Below, one piece after another: positions 4,868 to 46,673 of a stretch of 64,000 bases of DNA. Under the pieces are notes generated by a model. It was not told the origin of the DNA, ran no database searches, and saw nothing but the letters and a program-made list of their open reading frames with translations. The stretch comes from Caballeronia udeis. GTDB lineage: Bacteria > Pseudomonadota > Gammaproteobacteria > Burkholderiales > Burkholderiaceae. The DNA lies in contig NZ_FCOK02000017.1 of assembly GCF_001544555.2 (NCBI RefSeq), forward strand, positions 62,001-126,000, given 5' to 3'. Numbering within the stretch: the first letter of the stretch is position 1; every line of letters begins with the position of its first letter. Both the position numbers and the translations under genes were made by a program.

Positions 4868-7234
4868 CTAGGCTGAAACTTCGTCGGCCTCGCGTTGCGC
4901 TTGCGCTCCGCTACCGTCTACGGCGACGTTGTCCGGTAAGCAAACAACCGTTTCGAAGCGGCGGAATTCCGCACCCGCATGATCATCGGTAAAGCGCAGC
5001 TTGATGCTGCCGTCTTTGCGCTTGAGGAAGTCGCGCACGGCGTCCATGCCCACGCCACGGCCCGACACTTCCGTGACCTGCTCCGCCGTCGAGAAGCCCG
5101 GGCGGAAGATGAGGTCGGCAATCTCCTCGTCGCTGGTCTTGTCGTCGCTGCCAATCCAGCCGCGCTCGACTGCAATATTGCGAATCCGCCTCAGGGCGAG
5201 GCCGCGGCCGTCGTCTTTCAGCGTAATGCGGACTGTGTCTTCCGCGAGACTCATGTCGATATCGATCGTGCCGCCCGCTGTCTTTCCTTGCGCCACGCGC
5301 GCCTCGGCCGTCTCGATGCCGTGGTCCATCGAATTGCGCAGCAGATGCATGAACACGTTTTTCAACACGCCGCTGGCGTGACCATGCAACCGGGTGTTGT
5401 TGTCACGAATACGTACCACGGGCGCTTCCTTGCCCAGTTCCTTCGCGAGCGAGGGGAGTGAGTCGAGCACACCGGAGAGCACCTGGCCAAGACTTTCAGT
5501 TCCGAGCAGGCGCAAGGTCTGATGCAACGCGTCGCGCATTTCGATCAGGTCGCCGGGAGTGCCCACATTCATGGCTTCGAGCTGACGCAGGCTTTCCTGA
5601 ATATGTTCGATATCGATTGTCAGGTACCGTTGCGCGTCACCGCCCTGGCCAGGTCCCTTGCGTCCCAGGCTGACCTCGTTGATCTCGGCGTAACTCTCGA
5701 CCACTTCACGTACGCGAGCCAGTTCCTGTGCAAGGCTTTCCTGATCCCAGGTCCGCTGCGCGTCGGGCTTGCGCAGTTCGTCGTAGCTCTGCTCGGTCTC
5801 GTGAACAATGTCGGTCAGGTACTGGAGGCTGTAGGTACGCGCGTTGCCCTTGATCGTATGCATGTTGCGGAACAGTTCGGCAATGGCGGCGCCGTTCGCC
5901 TGGCGGTGCTCGCGAATGATCCGTTCGTTCTCGCTGATAAAGGTGGTTGAGCTTTCGATGAAGTGGTGGAACTTCTCCTGGTTGATCGCGAGGATTTCAC
6001 CGATCATTTCCAGCCTGCGTTTCTGCTCGGTCGTTTCCGCAGCCAGTGCGCGCAACTCCGTGACGTCGCGCACGCACAGCATCAGGCGCACGATGGTGTC
6101 GGTTTCGTCGGTGATGGCGGACCAGCTGAGGTCAAGAATTTTCACGCGGCCGTCGGGCATGCGCTTCGCGGTTTCGTGTACCAGCAGGTGTTGATTGAAC
6201 TCGAAGTTGATGCTGTCTTCGCCGAGGCATGCATGGCTGGCTGCGTCTACTTGCGAGAGCACGTCGGCGCCAAGATCGGTGTCCGAGAACACCAGGTCCA
6301 TGAGGCTGCGGCCGGCAATGTCCTTCGTTTCGAAGATCGCTTCAAGATGCGCCGAGTACTCGGCATGGACAACGGCCCCGGATACGACCGTCAGGATGCC
6401 CTGTTGCATGTTTTGCAGCATGGCCTGGATGTCTGCGGTCTTCTGCGTCAGCAAGGCCGAGTTCTCCTGGATCTTTTCGATCATGCCGTTGAACGCGACA
6501 ATAGAGTGGCCGATCTCGTCCATCCGTCCCACCGGCACGCGGCGCGTGAAGTCCTGGCTGGAGGCAATCTCGCTCATCATGGCCTGCATGCGGCTTAGCG
6601 GTTGCGTGATCTGGCGGTAGAGCAGGGAACCGATCAGGCTCAGCAGCACGATGGCGACACCCGTCACAATGGCGATAGCGGTCGTTGTTGTCGCGAGCGT
6701 GTGGTTCAGCGCGGTGATTGCATCGTCCTTCTCGCGGTTCTTCTCAATGCGAAGGGTCTCGACTATGCCTTCCAGTTCGTCGCGATACTGCGCCACGTTG
6801 GCGAACAAAAACGCTTGCGCGAGCTCGTTCTTGCCCGCGGCTTTCATCTTTGCCGTGTCATTGATCGCCGAGAAGTAGTTCTCGAGGCTGTCGTTAGCTT
6901 GGCTTACCAATCCGACTTGTGCGTGGCTGTGCGCGTTACGTGCCTGGAAGGCGAGCGCTTGCTGCAGGGACGCCTTCTTCGCTTTCAATGCATCCTGCGC
7001 CTGGGCGACGACGTTGCCGTCCGGCGAATACACAAGCGTCATGGTGGCAAGTTGCACGTCCTTGACCTGCGAAACCAGGTCGGCGGAAGCCAGCGCGCTG
7101 GGCACCACGCCTTCGGTGACTTGCTTGACCTCCGATGCGCTGTGCCGCGTCTGGTAGACGGCGTAACCGCCGATCGCCGATAAGGCGACGAACATCAGGA
7201 TGACCAATAGCGTAATGCGATGACGGATAGTCAT
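4868..7234 (-). CDS. Membrane-bound CheA-like histidine kinase (4HB-like sensor, HAMP, PAS-like, Hpt, ATPase)
   Basis: 788 residues. Two membrane helices (about 9-27 and 185-205) bracket a helical periplasmic region like that of MCPs, followed by HAMP (about 205-260) and a PAS-like segment (about 265-395). An Hpt domain follows with phosphorylatable His459 in MHTIKGNAR. The HATPase domain shows an N box (HLLRNSMDHGIE), DDGRGL and SGRGVGMDAV, which are CheA-type rather than EnvZ-type signatures. The protein stops soon after the ATPase, so it lacks the CheW-binding P5 domain of true CheA and would not join a classical array. It is the first gene of the operon, with GGGGAG just upstream of its ATG. 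The likely acceptor is the CheY-like protein at the operon end. Confidence 0.9.
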   Translation of the reverse strand: MTIRHRITLLVILMFVALSAIGGYAVYQTRHSASEVKQVTEGVVPSALASADLVSQVKDVQLATMTLVYSPDGNVVAQAQDALKAKKASLQQALAFQARNAHSHAQVGLVSQANDSLENYFSAINDTAKMKAAGKNELAQAFLFANVAQYRDELEGIVETLRIEKNREKDDAITALNHTLATTTTAIAIVTGVAIVLLSLIGSLLYRQITQPLSRMQAMMSEIASSQDFTRRVPVGRMDEIGHSIVAFNGMIEKIQENSALLTQKTADIQAMLQNMQQGILTVVSGAVVHAEYSAHLEAIFETKDIAGRSLMDLVFSDTDLGADVLSQVDAASHACLGEDSINFEFNQHLLVHETAKRMPDGRVKILDLSWSAITDETDTIVRLMLCVRDVTELRALAAETTEQKRRLEMIGEILAINQEKFHHFIESSTTFISENERIIREHRQANGAAIAELFRNMHTIKGNARTYSLQYLTDIVHETEQSYDELRKPDAQRTWDQESLAQELARVREVVESYAEINEVSLGRKGPGQGGDAQRYLTIDIEHIQESLRQLEAMNVGTPGDLIEMRDALHQTLRLLGTESLGQVLSGVLDSLPSLAKELGKEAPVVRIRDNNTRLHGHASGVLKNVFMHLLRNSMDHGIETAEARVAQGKTAGGTIDIDMSLAEDTVRITLKDDGRGLALRRIRNIAVERGWIGSDDKTSDEEIADLIFRPGFSTAEQVTEVSGRGVGMDAVRDFLKRKDGSIKLRFTDDHAGAEFRRFETVVCLPDNVAVDGSGAQAQREADEVSA

Positions 7235-7731
7235 TCGAGAAACTCCCCGGGCGAAACTGGCGTATCAAGGCCTGGCCAGGAACAGGCCGGCCTTGTGGAA
7301 TAGGTGCTTCTTTTAAGAGACTCGAATAGTGTTGATTTAATGTTACTAATGCGTGACCGCTGAGGAAAAATAACGTTGTTTACCCTACTGGCCCTTGCTG
7401 GGCTTAGGTATTCGGTTATGCTTAATTACGCAAAATAATTAGTGCGAAAATAGCTCTAAAGTTTTATCAAATATTGCCGTTAATAGAGGGTTCGTTTTTA
7501 CCGATGGGCGGATTTCGTCGTTCGGGCCGATTTAGCCGCGTTCTCTTTGAAACTGATTTTTGTGCGTGGCGAATAACCACTTGAGCGCGCCTCGAGGACC
7601 CCGGTGTGCCGGGTCAAACGTCACGCTAACGATTGCGAAGCATGCTGCCAGTCGTACCGGGCGCCACTGGAACCTCTAATCACTTAAATTGTCTATGTGT
7701 GATGTGGTCCTCTTTTTGGGGAGGCTTCCAA
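7235..7731. other. Divergent intergenic region between chemosensory operon and MHS transporter
   Basis: About 500 bases without a supported gene, markedly AT-richer than its surroundings between 7320 and 7510. It must carry the promoter of the leftward kinase operon and that of the rightward transporter. A sigma28-like promoter on the + strand is listed separately. A short hairpin (GACCC with GGGTC, around 7599-7617) lies downstream of it but has no T-tract. Confidence 0.6.
7457..7483 (+). promoter_or_regulatory. Sigma28 (FliA)-like promoter
   Basis: TAAAGTTT at 7457-7464, an 11-base spacer, then GCCGTTAA at 7476-7483. The FliA consensus is TAAAGTTT-N11-GCCGATAA, so 15 of 16 positions match with the exact spacing. 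It points rightward, toward the MHS transporter whose ATG lies about 250 bases further on, and away from the chemosensory operon. Seen directly in the sequence; activity is inferred. Confidence 0.6.
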
Positions 7732-33588: not shown

Positions 33589-35283
33589 TCAGTGCGTGCC
33601 GTCCCTGCCGTCATTTGTGCCCGGCGTAAACGAGACTCCACGCAGCACTTCGCCGAACTTGGCAGAGCCGAGCGTGACAAAATTCGCGTTCGCAGCAGCT
33701 GCCGGGCGGGTATTTTTCAGCTCATCCCGGATTGCAACGAGCTTGTTCGGATCCGCGCCGGTATCGCCGTTCCCGCTGACTGTGGACGTCGTTGCCCAGA
33801 GCGTGACGGTGCCATCGCGGCTAACGGAACCAATCAGGTTACGGAGGCCATCAGTCGCGGGCGACCATGGCAGTCCGGTTGCCGCGTTGCTGCCGACCGG
33901 ATAGTTTTGCACCGTGTAAGGCTTACCCAGGTCCAATCCGCTTTGCAGCGTATAGGCCAGCACCCATTTCTTCGTGGGCGCATTGAACACCCATTTCTGA
34001 AGACCCGCGGTGGATTGCGCAGCTGCGTGCGTGAAGAGATCGGCACCACCCGTATAGCCGTCGCCTTCATCGGCCACATAGAGTGTGTTGGCGTCGGCGA
34101 ACCAGAGGCCGAACGGGAAACTGAGGGTCGTCGCGGTCTTGTTCGGAGTCGACGGGAAGCCGCTCAGGATGCACATGTTGCTCGGCAGCCCTGTTGTCGC
34201 GAGAGTCGAAGCAGCGTAACTGAGCGGTGCACTTGGCAGCACCGCTTTCGGCGAAGGCACACCGGTACCGTTCGGGCACGCGGTCCCGGTGGTGTCGACG
34301 AAGTAGACGGTGTTGACGCCATTGCTGCCGCTGCCCTTGGTCATGTAGACCACGTTATTGAAAACTGTCATCCCGCGAAAGTTGTCGTCCTTGCCGATCT
34401 TGTCGGCGGGCGCGCCCAGTTGGGTGACCGAGAAGCTTGCAAGCGGACTTGGCGTGCCAGGAGCTTGCTGCGCCTCGGGCTGCGTCGCCTCCGCAATGAA
34501 TTGCGAGCCTGCGCCGAGGACCACGCCGGCCGGCTGGGGATTGCTTCCATTGCCCGCGTTGCCGGTCGTGAAGAAGAAGCGCTTTCCGCCGTGGTCGATC
34601 AGGATCGCAGCGCGGCCGTTGTTGCCGCTATAGGCATTCGTTTCGGTGAAGCTGAACTGTCCGTTGCGATCGACCTTGGCCACTGCACGGTAGAAGCTCT
34701 GCCCGTCGGGATTGGTCGGATCGACGACGCCTGGCGTGTTTGAATTCGACACATCCAGCATGTTGATCGGAGCGACATAGCCCATGAAGGTCAGGTACTT
34801 TCCATCGTCTGAGAGGTGAAGCCCGATTTCCGATTTCGAACTGAAGCTGGTTACCATCTGGTCTGCCGTGGTGCCCGCATTCGTCACGCTCGGCACCTCC
34901 AGCGTACTGATCCGCCAGCCGGATGGCGCTAGCTGATCCAGGAAAATCTTCGACGTGATACCGAAGCTCCCGTCATAAAGGGCGTTGTTCCAAACGAATG
35001 GGTAGGTGCCGTCGTTCGGCGCGCCGGTTGCCGCGCCGCACCCGCCCGTCGTTTGCGCGCAGCCGGGTGGCAGGATCGAGCCAACCTGTACGTTGGCCGA
35101 GCGGTTGTCGTAAACGCTGCGACTGACGACAAGATTTCCCGGTTGAAATGCGGCGTTGTGCCCGTTTTGCGGCTCTTGCGCCATTGCAGTGAGGCTAATG
35201 CCCAATGGAAGCAGCGCTAGCGCTGAAATGCCTCGGGCAAGGGAACGCTGACGAGTCGGAAACGGGCGAAAAACAGGCTGCAT
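33589..35283 (-). CDS. Exported beta-propeller-like protein, function unknown
   Basis: About 564 residues. An N-terminal export signal (RGISALALLPLGISLTAMAQ) precedes a long secreted body rich in Gly, Thr, Asn and Ser, with repeated blocks of the type GLHLSDDGKYLTFMGY, GKRFFFTTGNAGNG, NNVVYMTKGSG and ANTLYVADEGDG. These are spaced like blades of a propeller (Asp/Gly turns followed by hydrophobic strands). Two Cys pairs (PPGCAQTTGGCG; ACPNGTG with SNMCILSG) suggest disulfides. I start at the ATG at 35283, with GGAGA upstream. No catalytic motif recognised and no operon partner. Confidence 0.75.
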   Translation of the reverse strand: MQPVFRPFPTRQRSLARGISALALLPLGISLTAMAQEPQNGHNAAFQPGNLVVSRSVYDNRSANVQVGSILPPGCAQTTGGCGAATGAPNDGTYPFVWNNALYDGSFGITSKIFLDQLAPSGWRISTLEVPSVTNAGTTADQMVTSFSSKSEIGLHLSDDGKYLTFMGYVAPINMLDVSNSNTPGVVDPTNPDGQSFYRAVAKVDRNGQFSFTETNAYSGNNGRAAILIDHGGKRFFFTTGNAGNGSNPQPAGVVLGAGSQFIAEATQPEAQQAPGTPSPLASFSVTQLGAPADKIGKDDNFRGMTVFNNVVYMTKGSGSNGVNTVYFVDTTGTACPNGTGVPSPKAVLPSAPLSYAASTLATTGLPSNMCILSGFPSTPNKTATTLSFPFGLWFADANTLYVADEGDGYTGGADLFTHAAAQSTAGLQKWVFNAPTKKWVLAYTLQSGLDLGKPYTVQNYPVGSNAATGLPWSPATDGLRNLIGSVSRDGTVTLWATTSTVSGNGDTGADPNKLVAIRDELKNTRPAAAANANFVTLGSAKFGEVLRGVSFTPGTNDGRDGTH

Positions 35284-35960
35284 GTCATTTCTCCGGGAAA
35301 GGGAATTGAAGTTACACGGCGTCCAACGCAAACAGTTGCGTGACGTTAGCAGCGGCGTGTGTAGGATTATTTACAGGCCCGGAAAGAATTTGTAATGGTT
35401 TTCCCGCGACAGAGTTTGGTTCTTGGGGAACGGTATATTGCGTGGCGGCCGGCCATCGACTGCATCCTGCGAGAGTCTGCCCAGACGCAGGCAGTTCACT
35501 TAGCTGCTTGGCCTGAAGCTTTTGATGAGATGTTTGCGCGCTTGAGCAAGATCGAAGGGCTGCGACGAATCTTGCGCGGTGCTCTTTTTGAATTCATCAG
35601 TGGATATGGCGCGTCAAATGTTGTCGCAGCGCGTCCGGATCACTGTTATTTTTAAAGCACCAACCGGCGAGAAGGCTGAAGCAGACGTCCAGTCCGAGAA
35701 GATCAATCTGTGAGGTTAATCGGATGCAATGGGTATGGGCCATTCGGAACCGTGCCGGAGAACTACATTGTGCAGTGGCTGGAGACGAAGATTCCCTCGG
35801 TCGATCGGGAAGCACAAAGACATCCGGCTGGCGTAGCCTGAAACTGCAAGATGTGCGGCGTGTACTATTCGATTTAAATACAGCGGATGATGCTACCTAT
35901 CCAGCATCATCCGCTATGTAATTGCAGCTCGCCTCGAAGGTATTCCTGGGAGACGATGGA
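35284..35960. other. Intergenic region, no confident gene
   Basis: 677 bases between the exported-protein gene and the LuxR-type regulator. An 86-codon rightward frame (35395-35655) has a weak GGAAAG box and no recognisable motif. The stretch also looks patchy in codon use, so I leave it uncalled. The promoters of both flanking genes must be here. Confidence 0.45.
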
Positions 35961-36710
35961 ATGCGCGTACTGATCGTCGATGATCACGAGCTGTTCAGAG
36001 CCGGATTGGCGCTGCTGCTTAGGGAGCTCTTTCCGAGCATCGAACTGCTGCACGCGAGTACGTTGTCGCAATGCATGAGTCACGCGCTTGGCGAGCTCCT
36101 CAACATCGTTTTTCTTGATCTCGACCTTCCCGATGGCCACGGCTGCAGCGCGCTTGGCCGATTGAAGGAGTCGCGCCCGTCGTTACCGGTGATTGTGATA
36201 TCGGCCGATGAGAGCGTGGAAACCATCAGTCGATGCATCGAACTTCGCGCCATGGGATATGTGCCCAAATCGTCGCCTCCTGAAGCGCTTCATGCAGCAA
36301 TAAGCGCAGTGCTTGCCGGGGGCGTATTCCTGCCCGCCGCCAGCATCGCGAAACTCAGGCATGACATGGGCACGGAGGAAGCGCCGGCAAATGGACCTGG
36401 GAAAGCGCAGCCGAGCGGTAATTCGGAAATGAGCACGGCATCCGAGTTGGGACTCAGCCCGAGAGAGTTCGAAACGCTGGCGTGGCTGGTGCGTGGACTT
36501 CCCTCCAAGGCAATAGCCCTGAAAATGGGGCTTGAGGACATTACCGTCCGGAAGTACGTCAGTCATCTGCTTGCGCATTTCAATCTTCGGCGCCGCACGG
36601 AACTCATCGTCATGCTGGCGGATAAAGGGATCAAACTCGGTGTCCCGCCGGTCACGGATCCCGCACATGATCGAAACCTGCCGCCTGTTGAGCGGCAACG
36701 AAACGACTGA
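35961..36710 (+). CDS. LuxR/NarL-type response regulator
   Basis: 249 residues. The receiver domain has D8/D9, phosphoacceptor D53 (IVFLDLDLPDGHG) and Lys in YVPKSSPP. A linker of about 40 residues is followed by a LuxR helix-turn-helix (LGLSPREFETLAWLVRGLPS, then KAIALKMGLEDITVRKYVSH). I start at the ATG at 35961 (MRVLIVDDH), with GGGAG upstream. Its last 59 bases overlap the 3' end of the hybrid kinase on the opposite strand, so the C-terminal tail and the kinase C-terminus are encoded by the same DNA. It is the likely output partner of the two hybrid kinases. Confidence 0.92.
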   Translation: MRVLIVDDHELFRAGLALLLRELFPSIELLHASTLSQCMSHALGELLNIVFLDLDLPDGHGCSALGRLKESRPSLPVIVISADESVETISRCIELRAMGYVPKSSPPEALHAAISAVLAGGVFLPAASIAKLRHDMGTEEAPANGPGKAQPSGNSEMSTASELGLSPREFETLAWLVRGLPSKAIALKMGLEDITVRKYVSHLLAHFNLRRRTELIVMLADKGIKLGVPPVTDPAHDRNLPPVERQRND

Positions 36711-38517
36711 CTTCAGCGAGCGTGCTTTCCGGCGCGGAAGACTTGCGCAACAGCACGAACGGCTCGGCGAAATCGCGAAGTGCGTGAGGAGACACCAGTT
36801 CGCCCGTGATGAACGCGACGGGAAGCACGCCCGCCCAGGCGAAATGCTGCCGGATCCGTTCGGCAACCTCGATACCGGTTGGTCCGTCGCGAAGCCGGAT
36901 ATCGGTGACGATGATGTCAGGTATGCGGCCGTCATCGGCCAGAATCGCATCGAATCCCGCCATTGACTCGGCGGTATCCACCAATGCGCCGGCACTGAGG
37001 AACAACCTGCGGAGGCCCTCGAGAACAGTCGGTTCGTCGTCGCACAGCAGGACGTATTTGCCCTGGAGGACGGACGTGGATGCGTCGCTCTTTGGATCGT
37101 CCGTCTCGATGACCGGTGTCATTTTGGATATTGGCGCGTACAGGGAAAAGCGGGACCCGCGCTCCTCGACCGACCAGAAACTCATGCTGTGTTTCGGCAG
37201 AATGCCAATGACCCGGTGGACGATAGACAGCCCGAGCCCCAGGCCTTTCGAGCGATCGCGACCCGGGTTGTTGATCTGATAGTACTCGGCGAATATCGCC
37301 TCCCGATGCGCGGGCGAGATGCCGACGCCCGTGTCCCGTACGTCTATGCGAAGCCGTTCCCCGATCTCCACCCAGCCGATGACGACACCACCCGTGGAGG
37401 TGTTCTTGATCGCATTCGATACGAAATTGGACAAAACCCGCTTGAACAAGGAGCGATCACTTTCAATGGGCGGCGGGCGGCGCCGACGCCCGCTGATTCT
37501 TAATTCGATACCCCGTGACCTTGCCGGTTCAAGGTATTGCTCGTAGACCTCCGTCAGCACGGCCTGCGTATCAAGGGGCGCCATGTGCGGGATGTAAGAC
37601 CCTAGTTCGCTGTAGTCCTGAATATCCTTGAACATGTCGAGAATATCGCGTGCCGTTTCCTCGACGACGTCGAGATCATGACTTGCTGCGTGTTCACCTT
37701 CGAGTTTTATCCGCGCGCTACGAATGAAGAGGTTAATCGCGGCGAGGGGCTGCTGGATGTCGTGGTAGGCCGATGAAAAGAACCGCTCCTTCTCTCTGAC
37801 GATTTCTCTCATACGGTCATTCTGCTGATTGACAGCCAGGGACGCCGCTTCAACGCGTGCCTTGGCTGCGCGCAACGTCCGCCGGAACACAAATTCGCGT
37901 CGGGCAGCGCGTTCAAACTGGATGCAGACGACAATGCCAGCGAGATACATGAGAGACACCGTATTCCCACGGTGAACCCAGGAAAGCGAGTGAAACCCCG
38001 GCGTGGAAACATTACCCCGTATCCAGAGATAAATGGTAAGACGGAAGGTTACAACGCATAGTCCGACCAACCACGCTGCTGTGATTGCACGGAGTCGGAA
38101 CGATGTGAATATCAGGAAAGTGATAATAAAAAGTTCGGGGGAAATTGCGTCGAAGGCCTGGTTTGCCGGGTAAACGCTCATCAACCCCAATTGGGCGAAC
38201 CAACAACTCAGCATCACTACACAAAGTAATCTGACGGCCCGGCGTTCGTCAAAGGCGCGTGGTCCCCACATTAACCATACCGGCACAGCCATACCCACGG
38301 CACCTGCAAGTCGCACATGACCAACGCGCAGGAGGATGTTGGGATCAAGCGTGTTCAGCAGCAACCAATCACGGCCAACAAACAGGATCCATAACAGTAT
38401 GAGGCTGGCGCCAGCCAGCCTGCGTTGGCCCGCGTAGCGACGCGCATAGTCCATAAGGAACGCACGCTCTTCAGCCGCCGATCTAAACTTGCGTACTACG
38501 AAGCGTGACGATCTCAT
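36652..38517 (-). CDS. Hybrid histidine kinase, copy 1
   Basis: 621 residues. A five- to six-helix membrane sensor (about 30-200), a coiled coil, then the kinase core: phospho-His252 in SAYHDIQQPLAAINLF, N box NFVSNAIKN, DTGVGIS and GLGLGLSIVHR. A C-terminal receiver has DD at 493-494 and D539 in IIVTDIRLRDGPTG. Residues about 206-577 are identical to the second copy at 38818-40683, while the membrane sensor differs. The 3' end overlaps the LuxR-type regulator gene by 59 bases in convergent orientation. The upstream region is the shortest copy of the three-fold repeated intergenic element. Confidence 0.93.
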   Translation of the reverse strand: MRSSRFVVRKFRSAAEERAFLMDYARRYAGQRRLAGASLILLWILFVGRDWLLLNTLDPNILLRVGHVRLAGAVGMAVPVWLMWGPRAFDERRAVRLLCVVMLSCWFAQLGLMSVYPANQAFDAISPELFIITFLIFTSFRLRAITAAWLVGLCVVTFRLTIYLWIRGNVSTPGFHSLSWVHRGNTVSLMYLAGIVVCIQFERAARREFVFRRTLRAAKARVEAASLAVNQQNDRMREIVREKERFFSSAYHDIQQPLAAINLFIRSARIKLEGEHAASHDLDVVEETARDILDMFKDIQDYSELGSYIPHMAPLDTQAVLTEVYEQYLEPARSRGIELRISGRRRRPPPIESDRSLFKRVLSNFVSNAIKNTSTGGVVIGWVEIGERLRIDVRDTGVGISPAHREAIFAEYYQINNPGRDRSKGLGLGLSIVHRVIGILPKHSMSFWSVEERGSRFSLYAPISKMTPVIETDDPKSDASTSVLQGKYVLLCDDEPTVLEGLRRLFLSAGALVDTAESMAGFDAILADDGRIPDIIVTDIRLRDGPTGIEVAERIRQHFAWAGVLPVAFITGELVSPHALRDFAEPFVLLRKSSAPESTLAEVSRFVAAQQAAGFDHVRDP

Positions 38518-38817
38518 AAGGCTGCTTGATCAGGAAAGCCGCCGTGGGCGGATAGTGCGCAGCATTGAGAGGCCTTATCAACGCACCATAAATACAGAAT
38601 AACAGGTCGCCATCCCTACGATCAGCCACAAATGTATCAGCAGCGTGATGTGTCCTTGCCCGCAACCGGACGGTTTGGCAAGGAGTTCGGTCATGGAAGG
38701 CGACTATCTGATGCGTCACCCGGATCGGCCAACCCTCGTACTGCCGCTGCGTAATGGGGACTAATGGGGACATCTGCGTAATAGGGACATATTTCTATCT
38801 GAGGTCGGTCCCGCCAG
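38518..38817. repeat. Intergenic element A, copy 1 (shortened)
   Basis: From the kinase-1 start codon it matches the region upstream of kinase 2 (CATAAGGCTGCTTGATCAGG and onward). It keeps the hairpin CCTTGCC (38654-38660) / GGCAAGG (38677-38683). It lacks about 100 bases present in copies 2 and 3, and the match ends near 38740 where the small-protein gene would be approached. From about 38803 to 38830 the DNA resembles the 3' end of the LuxR regulator gene (TCACGGATCCCGCAC), as at 36654. Confidence 0.8.
38752..38788. repeat. Tandem TAATRGGGAC motifs
   Basis: TAATGGGGAC at 38752-38761 and 38762-38771 and TAATAGGGAC at 38779-38788. Such GGGGAC-type short repeats occur around REP-like or transposition-associated elements in this group of bacteria. 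They lie at the broken junction between element A copy 1 and the end of kinase 2. Confidence 0.4.
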
Positions 38818-40683
38818 TCACGGATCCCGCACCCGACCGAAGCCTGTCAGCTGCCAGTCGGCAACGAGCCGACTGACTTCTGCGAGCGTGCTGTCGGGCG
38901 CGGAAGACTTTCGCAACAGCACGAACGGCTCGGCGAAATCGCGAAGTGCGAGAGGGGACACCAGTTCGCCCGTGATGAACGCGACGGGAAGCACGCCCGC
39001 CCAGGCGAAATGCTGCCGGATCCGTTCGGCAACCTCGATACCGGTTGGTCCGTCGCGAAGCCGGATATCGGTGACGATGATGTCAGGTATGCGGCCGTCA
39101 TCGGCCAGAATCGCATCGAATCCCGCCATTGACTCGGCGGTATCCACCAATGCGCCGGCACTGAGGAACAACCTGCGGAGGCCCTCGAGAACAGTCGGTT
39201 CGTCGTCGCACAGCAGGACGTATTTGCCCTGGAGGACGGACGTGGATGCGTCGCTCTTTGGATCGTCCGTCTCGATGACCGGTGTCATTTTGGATATTGG
39301 CGCGTACAGGGAAAAGCGGGACCCGCGCTCCTCGACCGACCAGAAACTCATGCTGTGTTTCGGCAGAATGCCAATGACCCGGTGGACGATAGACAGCCCG
39401 AGCCCCAGGCCTTTCGAGCGATCGCGACCCGGGTTGTTGATCTGATAGTACTCGGCGAATATCGCCTCCCGATGCGCGGGCGAGATGCCGACGCCCGTGT
39501 CCCGTACGTCTATGCGAAGCCGTTCCCCGATCTCCACCCAGCCGATGACGACACCACCCGTGGAGGTGTTCTTGATCGCATTCGATACGAAATTGGACAA
39601 AACCCGCTTGAACAAGGAGCGATCACTTTCAATGGGCGGCGGGCGGCGCCGACGCCCGCTGATTCTTAATTCGATACCCCGTGACCTTGCCGGTTCAAGG
39701 TATTGCTCGTAGACCTCCGTCAGCACGGCCTGCGTATCAAGGGGCGCCATGTGCGGGATGTAAGACCCTAGTTCGCTGTAGTCCTGAATATCCTTGAACA
39801 TGTCGAGAATATCGCGTGCCGTTTCCTCGACGACGTCGAGATCATGACTTGCTGCGTGTTCACCTTCGAGTTTTATCCGCGCGCTACGAATGAAGAGGTT
39901 AATCGCGGCGAGGGGCTGCTGGATGTCGTGGTAGGCCGATGAAAAGAACCGCTCCTTCTCTCTGACGATTTCTCTCATACGGTCATTCTGCTGATTGACA
40001 GCCAGGGACGCCGCTTCAACGCGTGCCTTGGCTGCGCGCAACGTCCGCCGGAACACAAATTCGCGCCGGGCAACACGTTCAAACTGAATGCAGACGACAA
40101 TGCCGACAACATACATGATAAACATCATGGCCCCACCGGAAAGCCAGTGAACCATCATCGTGGAAACATCACTTCGTGGCGAGATTTCAATGTCCAGTTC
40201 TAAAAGATTAAAGGTTACAACGCATAGTCCGACTAACCACGCTGCCGTGATTGCACGAAGTCGGAACAATGTGAATACCAGAAAAAGGGCATTATAAAAA
40301 GCCGGGACAATCTCCGATTCGATCCGGGTCGGCGGGTAAACGTTCACCAACCCCAATAGCTCGAACCAGCAGCTCATCGTCACTGCACAAAGTAATCTGA
40401 CGGCCCGGCTTTCGTCAAAGGCACGCGGCCCCCACATCAACCATACCGGCACAGCCATACCCACGGCACCTGCAAGTCGCACATAGCCAACGTGGAGGAC
40501 GATACTGGGATCAAGTGTGTTCAGCAGCACCCAATCGCGGACAGTACCCGTGATCCATATTAGTATGAAGATGGCACCAGCCAGCCTGCGTTGGCCCGCG
40601 TAGCGACGCGCGTAGTCCATACGGAACGCACGCTCCTGAGCCGCCGATCTAAACTTGCGTACCACGAAGCCTGACGATCTCAT
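38818..40683 (-). CDS. Hybrid histidine kinase, copy 2
   Basis: 621 residues with the same domain order and length as copy 1: membrane sensor, phospho-His in SAYHDIQQPL, ATPase, receiver with DIRLRDGPTG. About 1.1 kb (38963-40063) is identical at nucleotide level to copy 1, whereas the membrane sensor (for example VYPPTRIESEIVPAFYNALF) and the last 15-20 residues have diverged. The two kinases therefore probably sense different cues but share one output path. It is divergent from the small secreted protein gene at 41251, with element A copy 2 between them. Confidence 0.93.
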   Translation of the reverse strand: MRSSGFVVRKFRSAAQERAFRMDYARRYAGQRRLAGAIFILIWITGTVRDWVLLNTLDPSIVLHVGYVRLAGAVGMAVPVWLMWGPRAFDESRAVRLLCAVTMSCWFELLGLVNVYPPTRIESEIVPAFYNALFLVFTLFRLRAITAAWLVGLCVVTFNLLELDIEISPRSDVSTMMVHWLSGGAMMFIMYVVGIVVCIQFERVARREFVFRRTLRAAKARVEAASLAVNQQNDRMREIVREKERFFSSAYHDIQQPLAAINLFIRSARIKLEGEHAASHDLDVVEETARDILDMFKDIQDYSELGSYIPHMAPLDTQAVLTEVYEQYLEPARSRGIELRISGRRRRPPPIESDRSLFKRVLSNFVSNAIKNTSTGGVVIGWVEIGERLRIDVRDTGVGISPAHREAIFAEYYQINNPGRDRSKGLGLGLSIVHRVIGILPKHSMSFWSVEERGSRFSLYAPISKMTPVIETDDPKSDASTSVLQGKYVLLCDDEPTVLEGLRRLFLSAGALVDTAESMAGFDAILADDGRIPDIIVTDIRLRDGPTGIEVAERIRQHFAWAGVLPVAFITGELVSPLALRDFAEPFVLLRKSSAPDSTLAEVSRLVADWQLTGFGRVRDP

Positions 40684-41250
40684 AAGGCTGCTTGATCAGG
40701 AAAGCCGCCGTGGGCGGATAGTGCGCAACATTGAGGGGCTTTATTGGCGCACCACGCGTTAGACAGGTTCCCACCGAACGTGGCTAACGAAGTAAGACGG
40801 CAAATTCCAGCGAAAGCGGTGCGGGTGGCCATGGGTGCACAACACCCTCGTGCGCGGCCACAGCGCGATAAAAACAGAATAACAGGTCGCGATCCCTGCG
40901 ATCAGCCACAAATGTATCGGCGGCGTGATGTGTCCTTGCCCGCAGCTGGACGGTTTGGCAAGGAGTCTAGGTCATGAAAGGCGACTACCTGATACATCGC
41001 CGGGATCGGCCAACGGGAGTGCATACATCTTTCATCTGCGTTACTTGTCCGTCGCCTACGCATGTGCGTTGCGACGGCGTGTCGTCGGACCAAAAATGAC
41101 TATGACAGCAACGCTGCAAGGCATTCGTCAAACGCGCCCGGATCTGGTTGGCCGTCGCATCGAGCGAACCTGCCTTAGCTTATGTGACGACCGCTGTCGG
41201 TCGGCGAACGATGCACAGGCCGATCCCTCAGACTCCAAAGGAGAACGCTC
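40684..41250. repeat. Intergenic element A, copy 2 (complete)
   Basis: 567 bases lying between kinase 2 (leftward) and the small secreted protein gene (rightward). It aligns with copy 1 at its left end and with copy 3 through to the small-protein start codon. The hairpin CCTTGCC (40934-40940) / GGCAAGG (40957-40963) is preserved while the loop differs. A second pairing, GGCGA with TCGCC, follows about 20 bases later. Likely a bidirectional regulatory region. Confidence 0.8.
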
Positions 41251-41517
41251 ATGAAACTTCATCAATCGATCGCCGTTTGTCTTGCCGTGATGGCTGGCGT
41301 CACGGCAGACGGATGCTTCGCCCAATCAACAACCAATCAGAACGAGTCGGTAGCCGTTGACAACGCCCCGCAAGATCCAGCGATCGCAGTTCCGGCTGTT
41401 ACACAGCCCGCCATGTCCCTTGGAAGAACACGCGAGCAAGTCATGCGCGAGCAAGCGGATTTCCAGAACAGTGACCAGGCGGCGCAGATGCGGGAACTTT
41501 ACCGAGGCAGTAAGTAA
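41251..41517 (+). CDS. Small periplasmic DUF4148-like protein, copy 1
   Basis: 88 residues. A Sec signal (MKLHQSIAVCLAVMAGVTAD, then GCFAQ) is followed by a flexible Pro/Ala/Val-rich stretch and a C-terminal helix GRTREQVMREQADFQNSDQA. The TREQV-x-RE-L pattern resembles the DUF4148 family of small periplasmic proteins in Burkholderiales. AAAGGAG lies just upstream of the ATG. It is about 75 percent identical by eye to the protein at 42606. Role unknown; its place opposite the kinase suggests it is a target or accessory of that signalling system. Confidence 0.75.
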   Translation: MKLHQSIAVCLAVMAGVTADGCFAQSTTNQNESVAVDNAPQDPAIAVPAVTQPAMSLGRTREQVMREQADFQNSDQAAQMRELYRGSK

Positions 41518-42129
41518 CGAGGCGTCGCCGGCCACGAGGGTGTTTCGACCATCGAACCGTCGTCAGCGTGTTCCGGCCCGTCAGTTTTGGACATCTGAAG
41601 TAGAAACTGCAACGACTATCAAGTCTTCGTTACGGAGTATCGAACAACGACTGTGCGACCGACCGTTACACCCTTGGAAGCTCTCCTCCTGCGCATAGAG
41701 ACTGACGCCCTCGATCGATTGCTCAACCGTAAAACCGGCGCGCTCCGCTTCTCTGTGACTTTTGGCGTGGCGCAAAGCGAATGTAATCTCGCCCGTGCTT
41801 AGTGCTCGAGAGGATTCGAAGCCAAAAACCTTTTGGTTATTTAGACGTCTACCAACCGGCATAGCGAGATGGCAGTATCAACAAGAGATGCAATTTTGTC
41901 TCTGCAATATTTGTTAGGATTACAAACATATTAGGCTAAAAAATTTTAATGAATTAATTGGCCACGGCGGCTCGGATCTCCAAGAACGGCAACTTTTTGA
42001 CTGATCGGTCTTCTGTGCGAGCAGGCGGATTGCCTTCGTTTTCAGGTTTAACACCTTTATACAAGGAGCCGGTGTGAACCGAGCCAATGTGTGGCGGTGG
42101 GTAGCCTCAACGCGAGTGATGTGTGCTTT
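41518..42129. other. Non-repeated spacer between the two small-protein units
   Basis: About 610 bases that replace the kinase expected to the left of element A copy 3. A 93-codon leftward frame (41581-41862) is present but has no recognisable motif and no good ribosome-binding site. An AT-rich stretch lies at 41880-41970. I see no transposase. Confidence 0.5.
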
Positions 42130-42605
42130 CGAACGTGGCTAACGGAGCAGGACGGAAAATTCCAGCGAAAGCGGTGCCGGCGGCCATGGGTGCACAACAC
42201 CCTCGTATGCAGCCCCAGTGCGATAAAAACAGAATAACAGGTCGCCATTCCTGCCATCAGCCACAAATGTATCCGCAACGTGACGTGTCCTTGCCCCTAG
42301 CCGGACGGTTTGGCAAGGAGCCCGGTCATGGAAGGCGACTACCTGATACGTCGCCCGGATTGGCCAACGGGAGTGCATACATCTTTCACTTGCGTTATGT
42401 GTCCGTTGGCTACGCATGTGCGTTGCAACGGTGTGTCGCCCGACCAAGAATGATTATGACAGCAGCGCTGCAATGGCATTCGTCAAGTGCATCCGGATCT
42501 GGTTGGCCGTTACCGGAGCCGAACCTGCCTTGGCTCGTGCGAAGACTGCTGCCGGTCGGCGAACGAAGCGCAGGCCGATCTCTTAAACCCCGAGGGAGAA
42601 CGCGC
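42130..42605. repeat. Intergenic element A, copy 3
   Basis: Matches copy 2 over its full length, from CGAACGTGGCTAACG to the start codon of the second small protein, with scattered substitutions. The hairpin CCTTGCC (42289-42295) / GGCAAGG (42312-42318) and the GGCGAC/GTCGCC pairing about 20 bases later are kept. No kinase gene lies to its left. Confidence 0.8.
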
Positions 42606-42875
42606 ATGAAACTTCATCAATCGATCGCCGTCTGTCTTGCCATGATGGCAGGAGTCACAGCAGACGGATGCTTCGCCCAGTCGGCGACCAATCAGACCGA
42701 GTCGGTAGCGGTGGGCACCGTCTCGCAGGATCCAGCGGTCGCGGTTCCGGCTGCCATGCCGACGCCTCCCGTTTCCTTTGGAAAAACACGCGAGCAAGTG
42801 ATGCGCGAGCTGCACGATTTTCAGAACAGTGATCAGGCAGCGCAGATGCGCGAGCTTTACCGAGGAGGAAGCTAA
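42606..42875 (+). CDS. Small periplasmic DUF4148-like protein, copy 2
   Basis: 89 residues, paralogue of the protein at 41251: nearly the same signal peptide, a diverged linker (PTPPVSFGK), and the same C-terminal helix (TREQVMRELHDFQNSDQAAQ, then MRELYRGG). GAGGGAG lies just upstream of the ATG. The frame is open upstream to 42123, but that part is element A and not coding. Conservation of both ends while the linker drifts argues that the protein is functional. Confidence 0.75.
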   Translation: MKLHQSIAVCLAMMAGVTADGCFAQSATNQTESVAVGTVSQDPAVAVPAAMPTPPVSFGKTREQVMRELHDFQNSDQAAQMRELYRGGS

Positions 42876-42945
42876 CGAGACTTGAAGTTTTTTATACAGA
42901 CCTCTACGACCAGCTTTACCACGTCTGGCAAAACCGGCCATCAGG

Positions 42946-43821
42946 TCAATGACAGTACAAGTCGTTTTCGGCGATGAACATGTCGAACGCGAGTTGCTTC
43001 GCCACGCTTTCGCGTGCTGTCGTCAGCCATCGGCTCTTGCGCCAGGCGCGAATGGTGCTATCGACGAACCGCATGCTTGCTGTATCTCCGCCTGCGGTCG
43101 CAACGAACGAGGGTGTTGGAGCGATGTCACCGGGAAGCACGCTGTAATAGCTCCAGTCGGGCTGCTTCAATAGCGACTTGATAACGAGTTCATCGTCCAC
43201 CAACGCGGTGCATTCGCCAGCCTGGAATGCCAGCAGTGCGTCGAGCGGCCGGTCGTAGGTAATGAGACGCGCGCCATGCAGCCGCGCGGCGCGGGGTCCG
43301 TAAGCATTACCTGTCGACGTGCAGATAGAGCCTCCGCGCAAGGCTGCCCAATCGTGCACGTTGCCGTGACGCAGCACAAGCGCTTGTCCCCGACCGGTCG
43401 CATAGGAGACAGGCGAGAAAGACAGCTTGGAACTGGGTTGGAACGGCAAGCCGCCGATGGCGACATCGGCCTTGCCGGTGGCGACTGCGGTTGCCGCGGC
43501 ACCGGGCTCGCTAAGCAGCAAGTCGACGGGCAACCCCAGACGCCGTCCGAGATCCTCGGCCAATGCAGCCGCGAAAGGATCGGGCGAGCGCAGCGTGCGA
43601 TCCACGTGCCCGACTGTGAGCACGGGCGCGGGCCGCGGTGGCACCGCGACAATCAGCCGGCCACGAAGAGCGGCCGTCGCGAACGGTTTTTCAAGCGTGA
43701 CGAACCGGCTCAATGTCGCGCTGATACACGCCAGCACCAGCAGAAAAACAATCGTGCGGTTGCGCGCGCCTGACCCATAGCGCGGACCGAGCCGACCCGC
43801 GCTGATTCCGTCGCTAGCCAT
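42946..43821 (-). CDS. SBP family 3-like periplasmic or membrane-anchored binding protein
   Basis: About 291 residues. One hydrophobic helix at about 23-40 (TIVFLLVLACISATLSRF) acts as export signal or anchor. The rest has the binding-protein pattern GRLIVAVPPRP, FAAALAEDLGRRLGLPVDLL and GKADVAIGGLPF. It is the last gene of the nitrate/sulfonate-type ABC operon, overlapping the permease stop by eight bases (ATG at 43821). Such operons normally carry only one binding protein, of a different family, so this is an accessory specificity or sensory subunit. Confidence 0.75.
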   Translation of the reverse strand: MASDGISAGRLGPRYGSGARNRTIVFLLVLACISATLSRFVTLEKPFATAALRGRLIVAVPPRPAPVLTVGHVDRTLRSPDPFAAALAEDLGRRLGLPVDLLLSEPGAAATAVATGKADVAIGGLPFQPSSKLSFSPVSYATGRGQALVLRHGNVHDWAALRGGSICTSTGNAYGPRAARLHGARLITYDRPLDALLAFQAGECTALVDDELVIKSLLKQPDWSYYSVLPGDIAPTPSFVATAGGDTASMRFVDSTIRAWRKSRWLTTARESVAKQLAFDMFIAENDLYCH

Positions 43822-44698
43822 TCTGCGCAATGCCGACGCGCCAGCGCAGCAGCTTGCGCTCGAGCATCGAGAGTCCGTAGTTGATCAGCAAACCAAAGAG
43901 CGCAAGCAGCACGATACCCGCGTACATATCGGGGATCTGGAATGTTTCCTGTGAGTTGAGCGTGTAGAAACCTAGCCCCGAGCGTGCGCCGATCATCTCG
44001 GCTGCGACCAGTGCGGTGATGCTGTACGCGCCGGCAAGCCGGACACCGGTCAGTATCTGCGGCAAGGCCGCCAGCAAGATGACCTTGGTGAATATGAATC
44101 TTTGCGTGGCGCCCATCGACCGCGCGCAATCGATAAAGATCCGCTCCACTTGCTTGACGCCGGCGAGGGTATTGAGCAGCACAGGCCAGAATGCGGCCCA
44201 CACAATGATCGCTATCTTCGACGATTCTCCAATGCCCAGGAACAGCATAAAGACAGGGAACAGCGCGAAGGCGGAGACCTGCCGCAATAGTTGATAAAGC
44301 GGATCGGCAATTCGCTCAGCGCGACGGAACCAGCCCAGCAAGAAACCGCTTACGATTCCGGCCGCAACGGCAAGCAACAAACCCGCGATAGAACGAAATG
44401 CACTACTGCCAAGATGCTTCCACACCTCGCCGGTAGCGAAGAGATGCGCGATCGCGACTATCACCGCGGAAGGCGGGCTGAGATAAGCCGAGCTGACAAT
44501 GCCAAGGCGTGGCAGCAGTTCCCATAACAACAGGAATGCAACCAGCGCGATGCTGCGTTCGAAGATGCGCACGGCGTGAGCGCGCACTCCTGAAGGCGCT
44601 GCGGGCAGCGCGGGTTGTTTTGATTGCGAGGCGGCGGCGCCGGAAGCGAACGACTCGCTAGCGGGAAGGGACGCCGTCGCGGAAGATCGATTATGCAT
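43814..44698 (-). CDS. ABC transporter permease, SsuC/TauC/NrtB type
   Basis: 294 residues, six membrane helices after a Ser/Ala-rich cytosolic N-terminus. The EAA loop that contacts the ATPase reads CARSMGATQRFIFTKVILLA, then ALPQILTGVRLA. I start at the ATG at 44698, with GAGG upstream, 23 bases after the ATPase stop. It forms an inner-membrane importer with the ATPase and binding protein of this operon; the substrate may be a sulfonate, nitrate/cyanate or thiamine-precursor-like compound. Confidence 0.9.
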   Translation of the reverse strand: MHNRSSATASLPASESFASGAAASQSKQPALPAAPSGVRAHAVRIFERSIALVAFLLLWELLPRLGIVSSAYLSPPSAVIVAIAHLFATGEVWKHLGSSAFRSIAGLLLAVAAGIVSGFLLGWFRRAERIADPLYQLLRQVSAFALFPVFMLFLGIGESSKIAIIVWAAFWPVLLNTLAGVKQVERIFIDCARSMGATQRFIFTKVILLAALPQILTGVRLAGAYSITALVAAEMIGARSGLGFYTLNSQETFQIPDMYAGIVLLALFGLLINYGLSMLERKLLRWRVGIAQNG

Positions 44699-44721
44699 GG
44701 ATGGTCCTCGTATGTTCGCGT

Positions 44722-45537
44722 TCAGGCGGGCTGCGCTGTCTCGGCGACCTCGGTCTTCAGCAACTCCCACGCGCGCTGCCGCAACGCCAGGAATTCCGCT
44801 GAATTGCGCACGGAGTCGTCGCGTGGGCGCGGCAAGGGAATGTCCATGATCGCCTTCACTTTCCCGGGACCGCGCGTCATGATCGCTACGCGGTCGGAGA
44901 GGAAGATCGCTTCATCAATGCTGTGGGTGATGAAGACCACGGTCCTGGCGCTTTTTTCCCAGATGGCAAGCAGTTCGCTTTGGAGGGACTCGCGGGTCTG
45001 CGCGTCGAGCGCGCCAAAGGGCTCGTCCATCAGCAGGACTTCGGGTCCGTAAGCGAGCGCTCGCGCAATGGCCGCGCGCTGACGCATGCCGCCGGAAAGC
45101 TGGTGCGGATAATGATTGCCGTACGCTTGCAATCCGACCAGCGAAAGAAAATGCGCGGCTTGCTCACGGCGTTCCGCACGTTTTACGTCGCGTATTTCAA
45201 GGCCGATTTCCACGTTCTCAATGACCGTGCGCCACGGGAACAGCGCATATCCCTGGAATACGACACCGAGCTTCCGGCTGACGCCGCTCAGAATCTGTCC
45301 GTCGATACGAACATCGCCTTGCGTTTGCCGCACGAGCCCGGCGAGTACGTTGAGGAGGCTCGACTTGCCGCAGCCGCTTGGTCCCAGCACCGAGAGAAAT
45401 TCGCCTTCGCGCACCGACAGGTTGAAATCCTGGAGCACGACATTCCTGCGCGCCTGCCCCGGCGTTCCCTCGTCCACGTAGGTCAGGCCAAGATGCTCGG
45501 CGACGATCTTGTCGGGGCGCAATGACACGCTGCTCAC
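44722..45537 (-). CDS. ABC transporter ATPase, SsuB/TauB/NrtD type
   Basis: About 271 residues. Walker A GPSGCGKSS, Q loop VFQGYALFPW, signature LSGGMRQRAAIARAL, Walker B VLLMDEPFGALD and switch His in ITHSIDEA. I start at a GTG (45537) that overlaps the binding-protein stop as GTGA and has GGAAG upstream; the frame is open to 45579. Energises the importer with the permease at 43814. Confidence 0.93.
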   Translation of the reverse strand: MSSVSLRPDKIVAEHLGLTYVDEGTPGQARRNVVLQDFNLSVREGEFLSVLGPSGCGKSSLLNVLAGLVRQTQGDVRIDGQILSGVSRKLGVVFQGYALFPWRTVIENVEIGLEIRDVKRAERREQAAHFLSLVGLQAYGNHYPHQLSGGMRQRAAIARALAYGPEVLLMDEPFGALDAQTRESLQSELLAIWEKSARTVVFITHSIDEAIFLSDRVAIMTRGPGKVKAIMDIPLPRPRDDSVRNSAEFLALRQRAWELLKTEVAETAQPA

Positions 45538-46673
45538 GATGCCGCTTCCACGGACGCCAGCGGTCTTGCATCGTGACACGGCGTGGTCGACGCGGACCTG
45601 TTCGAGCCCGCAGGTGCATTCGCGCGCGCGCGGGGCTGAGCGTAGGGGTTGTACTCGTTGGTGTACACGTCTTCCACCTTGACCTTGCCCTTCGGGATCT
45701 TGCCCGCTTGTTCGAGGATATCGATGTAGTACTGGATAGGCGGCGTAGTGACGACGAGGTCCTTGACGTAGGCATAACGTTCGACCACATCGACGTCGAT
45801 TCCGAGCCGCTCGGCCGTCAGTTTGCGTGCTTCGTCCGGGTGCGCGTTGACCCAGTTCCCGGCCTTGGCAATGGCGGCCACGAAGTCGCGCACCGCTTGC
45901 GGATGGGCCCGCGCAAACGCACCGTTCACGCTGTACGGCGCCATCCCGCCAAGGCCGTGATCCTCATCCCAGTCGCTCCACAGTTTGTGCAATTGCGGGT
46001 CATGTTCGGCGGCGCCGGAGAACGGCGGATGAATGATCGCGATGTCCACGTTCTTCGTGACCAACGCCTGTTGGGACTGATTGTCGGGCACGACCAGCCA
46101 GTTCACCTTCGACACGTCCACGCCATGCTGCGACAGGTATTTCTTCGTGACGAACTCGGCGCACGCGCCGAAGCTGTTGAACGCAACAGTCTTCCCTTCG
46201 AAGTCCTTGGGCTCCCTGATGCCGGAGTCCTTGCGCGAGAAGTACTTCATGTGCGGTGCGTCGGGCAGGGTCTCGCCGCCGGCGGAAATGACCTTGATGT
46301 CGGCACCGCTGGCGATTGCCGAGATGACAAGCGGAACCATGCGCGTGCCGAAGTCGATCTCACCCGTGCCGACCAGCGGAATGATCTGCGGCGCCGAGAC
46401 CTTCCCGACATACTTCGGGCGCGTACTTGTACCGTCGAAGTAGCCGCGCTTGTCCGCCAGATAAACGAGGTCGAACGCGGGGTTGTCGGGGTACTTGAAA
46501 TACGTCACGTTCCTGGCTTCTGCACCGTTAGCGGACGCGACGCTGGTCGCGTCCGTGGCGCCATCGCGGGAATTGCAGCCGCTCTGGAGGAGCAGCAGCG
46601 ACGCCGCAATCGATGCGACAGCAACGGAGATCGTGCGGTCACGCAGGCGGGACCGGGTCGGGATAGAGAGCAT
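45534..46673 (-). CDS. ABC substrate-binding lipoprotein, NMT1/SsuA/TauA type
   Basis: 379 residues. The N-terminal signal ends LLLLQSGCNS, a plausible lipobox with Cys32. The body reads YFKYPDNPAFDLVYLADKRG, GTGEIDFGTRM and FEGKTVAFNSFGACAEFVTK, the pattern of nitrate/sulfonate/taurine binding proteins. The last 40 residues are a Pro/Ala/Ser-rich tail not usual for the family. First gene of the operon; the start is the ATG at 46673. Confidence 0.88.
   Translation of the reverse strand: MLSIPTRSRLRDRTISVAVASIAASLLLLQSGCNSRDGATDATSVASANGAEARNVTYFKYPDNPAFDLVYLADKRGYFDGTSTRPKYVGKVSAPQIIPLVGTGEIDFGTRMVPLVISAIASGADIKVISAGGETLPDAPHMKYFSRKDSGIREPKDFEGKTVAFNSFGACAEFVTKKYLSQHGVDVSKVNWLVVPDNQSQQALVTKNVDIAIIHPPFSGAAEHDPQLHKLWSDWDEDHGLGGMAPYSVNGAFARAHPQAVRDFVAAIAKAGNWVNAHPDEARKLTAERLGIDVDVVERYAYVKDLVVTTPPIQYYIDILEQAGKIPKGKVKVEDVYTNEYNPYAQPRARANAPAGSNRSASTTPCHDARPLASVEAAS

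Follow-up and report, generated by a model that had tools for sequence, protein, structure and literature searches.

Two tandem hybrid histidine kinases of the soil bacterium Caballeronia udeis carry different membrane sensors on an identical tract of kinase core, and both adjoin a single LuxR/NarL-type response regulator (RR). The locus lies in a 64,000-nucleotide stretch, here called the window, which corresponds to positions 62001-126000 of contig 17 (NZ_FCOK02000017.1) in a 10.05-Mb genome available as a draft of 242 contigs. We propose, with moderate confidence, that the locus unites two tandem hybrid kinases (three in one relative), whose different six-helix sensors would serve one LuxR-type regulator, with cores that have been homogenised and a small protein as output.

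Different sensors on a common core

An earlier reading of this stretch from its letters alone, the first-pass annotation, had described two full kinases adjoining one LuxR-type regulator, and our analysis bears this out. In K1 (proximal to the RR) and K2 (distal), Pfam detects HATPase_c (65.2 bits) and Response_reg (37.5 and 37.3 bits) above the cut-off and HisKA at 24.8 bits, slightly below its cut-off of 26.9; the RR contains Response_reg (71.1 bits) and GerE (43.6 bits), each above its cut-off. By this domain content, the kinases and the RR are predicted to form a two-component system. Residues H252, D493, D494, D539, T571, and K592, which by motif knowledge we take to be active-site residues, do not vary among 28 aligned kinases. 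Hydropathy and a weak structure model (mean pLDDT 64.9, pTM 0.38, used for the helix count only) predict six helices in the membrane and, after them, a single long one that runs into the kinase. The sensors of K1 and K2 share 70% amino acid identity and the last ~20 codons share 76-77% nucleotide identity, whereas the 1,109 nt between them are identical.

Evidence for concerted evolution

How did two kinases with different sensors come to share one core? We compared a tree built from 24 sensors (codons 1-205) with one built from the cores (codons 206-575). In the sensor tree, the seven proximal sensors form one clade (100/98), and the seven distal or middle sensors form a second together with the sensor of P. 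fynbosensis, a strain with a single kinase (99/98). Because the sensor clades follow array position across seven strains, we judge from the trees that the kinase duplication predates seven of the strains compared. In the core tree, copies of the same genome pair with each other in four of these strains, namely S170 (93/93), dw_19 (100/99), C. megalochromosomata (100/99), and the window strain, where they are identical. Forcing the seven proximal cores together, with one set of identical rows left free, costs 225 log units (p-AU 1.5e-5), and forcing the two sensors of one genome together is rejected both for the window (cost 79, p 2e-37) and for dw_19 (cost 87, p 3.5e-5). At fourfold sites of the core, K1 and K2 differ from each other at 1/195 and from their S170 orthologues at 43/178 and 49/178.

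These comparisons leave little room for a recent tandem duplication, in which the core would owe its identity to its young age and selection would have driven a fast divergence of the sensors. That scenario accommodates the identical core and the high overall identity in the window, and we regard it as highly improbable: in seven strains the proximal sensors are orthologues of one another, as are the distal ones; fourfold sites of the sensors differ within the window (16/81) as they do from the S170 orthologues (20/96 and 13/96); and the rejected pairing of same-genome sensors refutes it for the window unless the tree model fails. Likewise, the first-pass proposal that a whole regulator-kinase-element-small-protein block was duplicated within this strain gives way to a kinase duplication that is old and common to seven strains, with cores homogenised later. 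Three further points speak against the whole-block scenario: the small protein S1 groups with that of strain S171 rather than with its neighbour S2 (98/95), the presumed regulator remnants are gene overlap, and the element is more readily taken for a divergent promoter.

Identical runs point in the same direction as the trees. In 5 of 10 paralogue pairs the longest run exceeds all 1,000 shuffles: 1,109 nt in the window, 722 nt in dw_19, 611 nt in BL9I2N2, 234 nt in C. megalochromosomata, and 134 nt in SBC1. The cores of other strains' paralogues are highly identical with scattered differences. The cores of the window and, judged by their long runs, those of dw_19 and BL9I2N2 thus appear to have evolved in concert by gene conversion. 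Two further kinases look like the products expected from crossovers in a shared core. First, the sensor and the first half of the core of the P. fynbosensis kinase follow the distal BL9I2N2 copy at nearly all differing sites, and its tail follows the proximal BL9I2N2 copy at nine of the last ten; by this pattern it is a chimera of a distal-type sensor and a proximal-type tail. Second, the S171 kinase has a third sensor type, nearest to that of the third S170 kinase, and its tail is 94% identical to the proximal and 82% identical to the distal tail of the window. Gene conversion combined with sensor swapping before one regulator fits this pattern.

Several observations weigh against this interpretation. 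The core tree gives no clear placement to the SBC1 cores and retains the grouping by position for those of BL9I2N2 and P. dilworthii. The other five paralogue pairs have runs that are not beyond the shuffles (one of 116 nt was reached by 1 shuffle, the others by 76-380), and the shuffles ignore the stronger conservation of cores relative to sensors. Moreover, the two longest runs in 809 comparisons between genomes measure 255 and 113 nt, so that the runs of 1,109, 722, and 611 nt are clear while those of 234 and 134 nt, both shorter than 255, are not. By the identical-run test, the signature of gene conversion was not seen in P. dilworthii, in RYN_561, or in two of the three S170 pairs; in RYN_561, the eighth strain with an array, the duplication may be separate because its own two sensors pair in the tree. 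Hybrid kinases also often need an HPt protein. Finally, in a 242-contig draft the identical tract could partly be an assembly effect. Our confidence is moderate because the assembly is a draft, half of the paralogue pairs have no long tract, and phosphotransfer and binding are predicted.

In its strong form, the last objection holds that one core was placed into both kinases, which would overstate their identity over 1,109 nt. Short reads do have difficulty with an exact 1.1-kb repeat, yet an artefact is improbable given that long runs recur in dw_19, BL9I2N2, and C. megalochromosomata and that the complete SBC1 replicon, where the effect is weaker, also contains two kinases with a shared run.

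Architecture of the array

A self-comparison of positions 35500-43500 found four colinear repeats with E-values from 2e-51 down to 0, and the intergenic regions of all three units are colinear well above chance. Positions 36642-38588 match 38808-40754 at 92.3% over 1,960 nt (K1 and K2); 40775-41521 match 42130-42879 at 84.7% over 753 nt (intergenic element plus S1, and element plus S2); and 38588-38733 match both 40868-41014 (89.8%) and 42223-42368 (89.0%), which relates the element of unit 1 to those of units 2 and 3. The three tandem units are therefore composed as first described: K1 with a shortened element and no small protein; K2 with the full element and S1; and an element with S2 and no kinase (Table 1). 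The unit-1 element is without a middle part of ~113 nt (40755-40867 of unit 2) and everything beyond 41014; 74 nt of other sequence take that place. The spacer behind K2 holds repeated GGGGACAT-like words; as a candidate repeated element it (38735-38812) was discarded, since a genome search found its own copy alone.

Table 1. Features of the kinase array, in window coordinates.
Feature	Position	Strand	Remarks
RR, LuxR/NarL-type response regulator	35961..36710	+	receiver and GerE; Pfam
Convergent overlap of RR and K1 3' ends	36652..36710		59 nt; source of the reported remnant
K1, RR-proximal hybrid histidine kinase	36652..38517	-	621 aa
K1 tract identical to K2	36791..37899	-	1,109 nt; none of 1,000 shuffles reached this length
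K1 membrane sensor, codons 1-205	37903..38517	-	six hydrophobic segments; proximal-type clade 100/98; hydropathy; low-confidence model
Shortened element, unit 1	38518..38733		38518-38588 and 38588-38733 match the unit-2 element
Kinase-direction promoter motif, unit 1	38596..38636	-	0 mismatches
Spacer between K2 stop and unit-1 element	38734..38807		not homologous to element; single copy in genome
K2, distal hybrid histidine kinase	38818..40683	-	621 aa
K2 tract identical to K1	38957..40065	-	1,109 nt
K2 membrane sensor, codons 1-205	40069..40683	-	distal-type clade 99/98
Full divergent element, unit 2 (K2/S1 intergenic)	40684..41250
Kinase-direction promoter motif, unit 2	40876..40916	-	TACATTTGTG-N25-TATTCT
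Small-protein-side motif, unit 2	41021..41033	+	GCATACATCTTTC
Putative regulator site	41057..41066	+	TACGCATGTG; resembles kinase box as TAC-N4-GTG
S1, small protein	41251..41517	+	88 aa; signal-peptide-like start; weak DUF4148 relative
Element, unit 3	42130..42605		first 91 nt of kinase side missing
Kinase-direction promoter motif, unit 3	42231..42271	-	no kinase behind
Small-protein-side motif, unit 3	42375..42387	+
S2, small protein	42606..42875	+	89 aa; signal-peptide-like start; DUF4148-like, below cut-off

The 3' ends of the RR and K1 overlap convergently, and an overlap of 31-73 nt recurs in 20 of 21 arrays with an intact convergent regulator; in the remaining one the kinase frame is broken. 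A remnant of the regulator's 3' end had also been reported after K2, but the repeat ends ~10 nt past the kinase stop and identity then falls to background. What was seen is the 3' end of the kinase, the opposite strand of which codes for the end of the RR. Genuine regulator fossils, with only 3'-end fragments of the convergent regulator behind the kinase, occur at five other loci (L063, L067, L071, L089, L090). Single-unit versions, which the first-pass annotation had suggested seeking in relatives, exist: for example, the record annotation of P. sprentiae pl1WSM5005 has a kinase (5001-6857) convergent with a regulator (6799-7548) and divergent from a hypothetical protein (4158-4424).

A probable divergent promoter between kinase and small protein

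Alignment of the upstream regions in the kinase direction revealed TACATTTGTR, 25 nt, and a TG-preceded TATTCT at 36 of 43 kinases, a count for which the regions were selected on the box but not on the -10-like part. The seven kinases without the box comprise five second kinases located 88-149 nt behind the first, one at a contig edge, and one at locus L076. If TATTCT is the -10 hexamer, the box would be centred near -42.5, an activator position. In the 10-Mb genome, TACATTTGTR-N25-TATTCT has three exact matches, one per unit, and none further at up to two mismatches (reversed control pattern, 3). Across 58 congeneric genomes, the composite motif has 26 matches at up to one mismatch in 15 genomes against 0 for the control, and all 15 are among the 17 genomes that contain the kinase. 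Of these sites, 23 adjoin a kinase, two adjoin a small protein (unit 3 of the window and a contig edge), and one adjoins neither. The last (L118; Caballeronia sp. dw_19, G036:C73:32557-32597), with one mismatch, perhaps marks another target gene, and one of the 23 (L111, G020:C241) is an exact motif still in front of an eroded kinase remnant. The unit-3 motif faces the 3' side of S1 and lacks a kinase of its own; transcription from it might run antisense to the end of S1. The idea that the RR gene carries the composite motif too was rejected, since no copy besides the three on the kinase side occurs in the genome with two mismatches or fewer.

On the other side of the element, the genome contains GCATACATCTTTC twice exactly and six more times with one mismatch, against four control matches. 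A search with an 11-mer that starts with A had no match in the genome because the window copies have C at that position. The sequence TATGACAGC, or a near variant, follows the first small-protein-side motif by 77-78 nt in 14 of 24 aligned regions. We regard the TAC-N4-GTR boxes and the small-protein-side motifs as putative regulator sites.

The first-pass annotation had called the element structured, which the data do not bear out: single sequences fold like shuffles (z-scores of -1.09 to +1.27 for 10 stretches), conservation is strongest in the promoter-like motifs, and Rfam has no match in 35000-44000 up to E = 1. That the element is mainly a regulatory RNA or structured leader strikes us as very doubtful. 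Its consensus hairpins do have 95.4% paired cells, and, as a point against a pure promoter, two fold measures are exceeded by only 9/500 shuffles and one by 1/500; however, the consensus fold has just -8.8 kcal/mol, with double changes in 2 of 15 pairs. The small-protein gene may be preceded by a short hairpin, and the element as a whole is better read as a predicted divergent promoter than as a structured RNA. The RR leader contains an imperfect inverted repeat of its own (35878-35919; ~18 pairs across relatives), single-copy in the genome and present in 8 of 11 aligned relatives including the window; it is absent from S170, dw_19, and the second contig of RYN_561, and no covariation support was found in the alignment of 11.

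The small, probably exported proteins

Neither S1 (10.5 bits) nor S2 (16.2 bits) reaches the gathering cut-off of 27 bits for DUF4148 (PF13663), and six of eight aligned members of their family match it at E <= 1 (best E 7.2e-5). A 250-aa frame from 42123 was discarded as S2: the start is at 42606, and in the alignment the upstream part of the frame is not conserved as protein. In a tree of elements and small proteins, S1 joins S171 (98/95) and S2 lies at an open fork, so that S2 appears not to have been copied from S1 recently. An origin of unit 3 other than recent copying of unit 2, either acquisition from a different strain or retention of an older duplicate in this one alone, is in our estimation evenly poised: the grouping of S1 with S171 and the proximity of S2 by path to SBC1, its nearest row, speak for such an origin, and the open fork, together with the adjacency and common orientation of S1 and S2, speaks against it.

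The first-pass statement that the small protein is always opposite the kinase holds for one kind of array and fails for the rest. The regulator is intact and convergent in 21 of 34 arrays (in two frames at L070); one of these, L069, lies at a contig edge and was not judged, and a divergent small protein is present in 20 of the 20 others, namely 17 of the S or DUF4148 kind (the gene at L064 is broken) and three other. By contrast, only 3 of the 13 remaining arrays (L061, L071, L087) have one. These linkage counts are inflated by shared descent. In 6 of the 34 arrays, the closest gene in divergent orientation is a full DUF4148-type gene (the sole representative scored, that of G002, has 60.9 bits, above the cut-off of 27, and five further arrays match the G002 protein by tblastn), and two other small secreted proteins were found across three arrays. 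As a point against a general pairing, none of six tandem-regulator arrays has a small protein. The six small-protein queries behind all these counts came from the surveyed arrays themselves, so that "none" means no similarity to those six.

Is the small protein an output of the pathway or a ligand? The regulator may also control the gene next door, and the sequence evidence, though mixed, leans to an output or target. That the protein serves the adjacent sensor as a dedicated ligand or accessory is unlikely: such a role would suit the divergent placement in 20 of 20 arrays and the weak residual correlation between small protein and adjacent sensor (partial r 0.29-0.55, p 0.019-0.053), but the distances between small proteins track those between regulators (r 0.96 for 10 loci and 0.64 for the closest 7), the window and S171 have near-identical regulators (distance 0.05) and similar small proteins (0.11) with dissimilar adjacent sensors (0.28), and the promoter-side motif is kept before unrelated small proteins (L062, L065, L066).

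The genome contains 37 DUF4148 matches above the cut-off. Six of them have one of the 51 kinase matches at a distance of no more than 3 kb, against an expectation of 1.28 (binomial p 0.0016). This closeness is no more than suggestive, given that two of the six are neighbours and gene placement is not random. An aromatic-x-G/H ending occurs in 16 of 30 DUF4148 proteins of the genome (a looser pattern, with three of the 30 read on the wrong strand).

Distribution and setting

The kinase is present in 17 of 58 genomes of the genus (E <= 1e-60) and in 13 of 299 genomes sampled from the family (E <= 1e-100), where it is confined to 2 of 25 genera. The 22 kinase loci with names belong to Caballeronia and Paraburkholderia, plus one record labelled Burkholderia sp. 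S171. Three plasmid records match, among them pSBC1_1 (Caballeronia sp. SBC1) and pl1WSM5005 (P. sprentiae), on which the kinase is plasmid-borne. The array sits in varied neighbourhoods, as the only flank strongly shared among those compared is the regulator side, with P. dilworthii. ABC-transporter-like genes (42946-45579) adjoin the array in the window, and neither their binding protein nor their permease is matched at any of the 22 named loci in relatives.

Discussion

We propose the following mechanism. Because their cores are kept alike, K1 and K2 probably feed one regulator; both would phosphorylate it, so that the locus would take in two signals. The phosphorylated regulator would bind TAC-N4-GTR boxes, for which TACATTTGTG, TACGCATGTG, and TACATCTTTC are the candidates within 40684-41250, and turn on the kinase promoters and the divergent gene for the DUF4148-like exported protein, giving positive autoregulation plus a dedicated small-protein output. 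Homologous recombination between near-identical cores would shrink arrays and swap sensors, with the array ends fixed by the regulator overlap on one side and the small-protein promoter on the other. More tentatively, the tandem kinases can be viewed as a sensor-cassette locus, a store of alternative membrane sensors before one regulator whose ends are anchored by the overlap and by the promoter of an exchangeable DUF4148-type gene. Since gene conversion would keep the cores interchangeable, a single crossover in the core could swap or delete a sensor and leave the output intact.

How does this arrangement compare with known systems? In the agr and comCD specificity-group systems, a variable membrane sensor is joined to a conserved kinase core; the variants are alleles across strains and the ligand is a peptide. 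The plan of the window kinases is the same, with the difference that the variants stand in tandem within one genome. The best NCBIfam matches of the window proteins are to the NahK/ErcS' hybrid kinases and ErdR (NF041832, NF041831, and NF041830), with scores far under the curated cut-offs (400, 1500, and 390 bits): K1 and K2 have 192.7 and 194.1 bits against NF041832, and the RR has 92.1 bits against NF041830. The input regions also differ, the window kinases having a predicted six-helix membrane sensor in place of the NahK/ErcS' input region. A DUF4148 protein has been noted beside Burkholderia IrlR2-IrlS2, a closeness called possibly coincidental in that paper (PMC7549894). As in the window, a small exported DUF4148-type protein there adjoins a two-component system; however, the kinase and regulator are of another class and the DUF4148 gene lies downstream in a possible operon, whereas in the window the kinase and small-protein genes diverge from a common promoter region, and the window copies score under the Pfam cut-off. 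In myxobacteria, two-component gene duplication and input-domain change in hybrid kinases have been described, with direct shuffling regarded as rare (PMC4603909). There gene conversion is named as a possibility only; in the window a conversion-like tract, and in a relative a chimera, can be read directly. The parts of the locus are thus already known, and the arrangement and mode of evolution look new; in the open-access literature searched (subscription papers lay outside its scope), no description was found of this locus or of concerted evolution of tandem sensor kinases.

The established view is that duplicated sensor kinases are expected to diverge, ending cross-talk with each other's partners. 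This locus points the opposite way: across several species, the copies are alike where the regulator is contacted and different where sensing occurs. It constitutes a natural experiment on the wiring of several inputs into one pathway and supplies natural sensor chimeras, and it links a poorly known group of exported proteins, those with DUF4148, with a regulator whose predicted regulon is very small.

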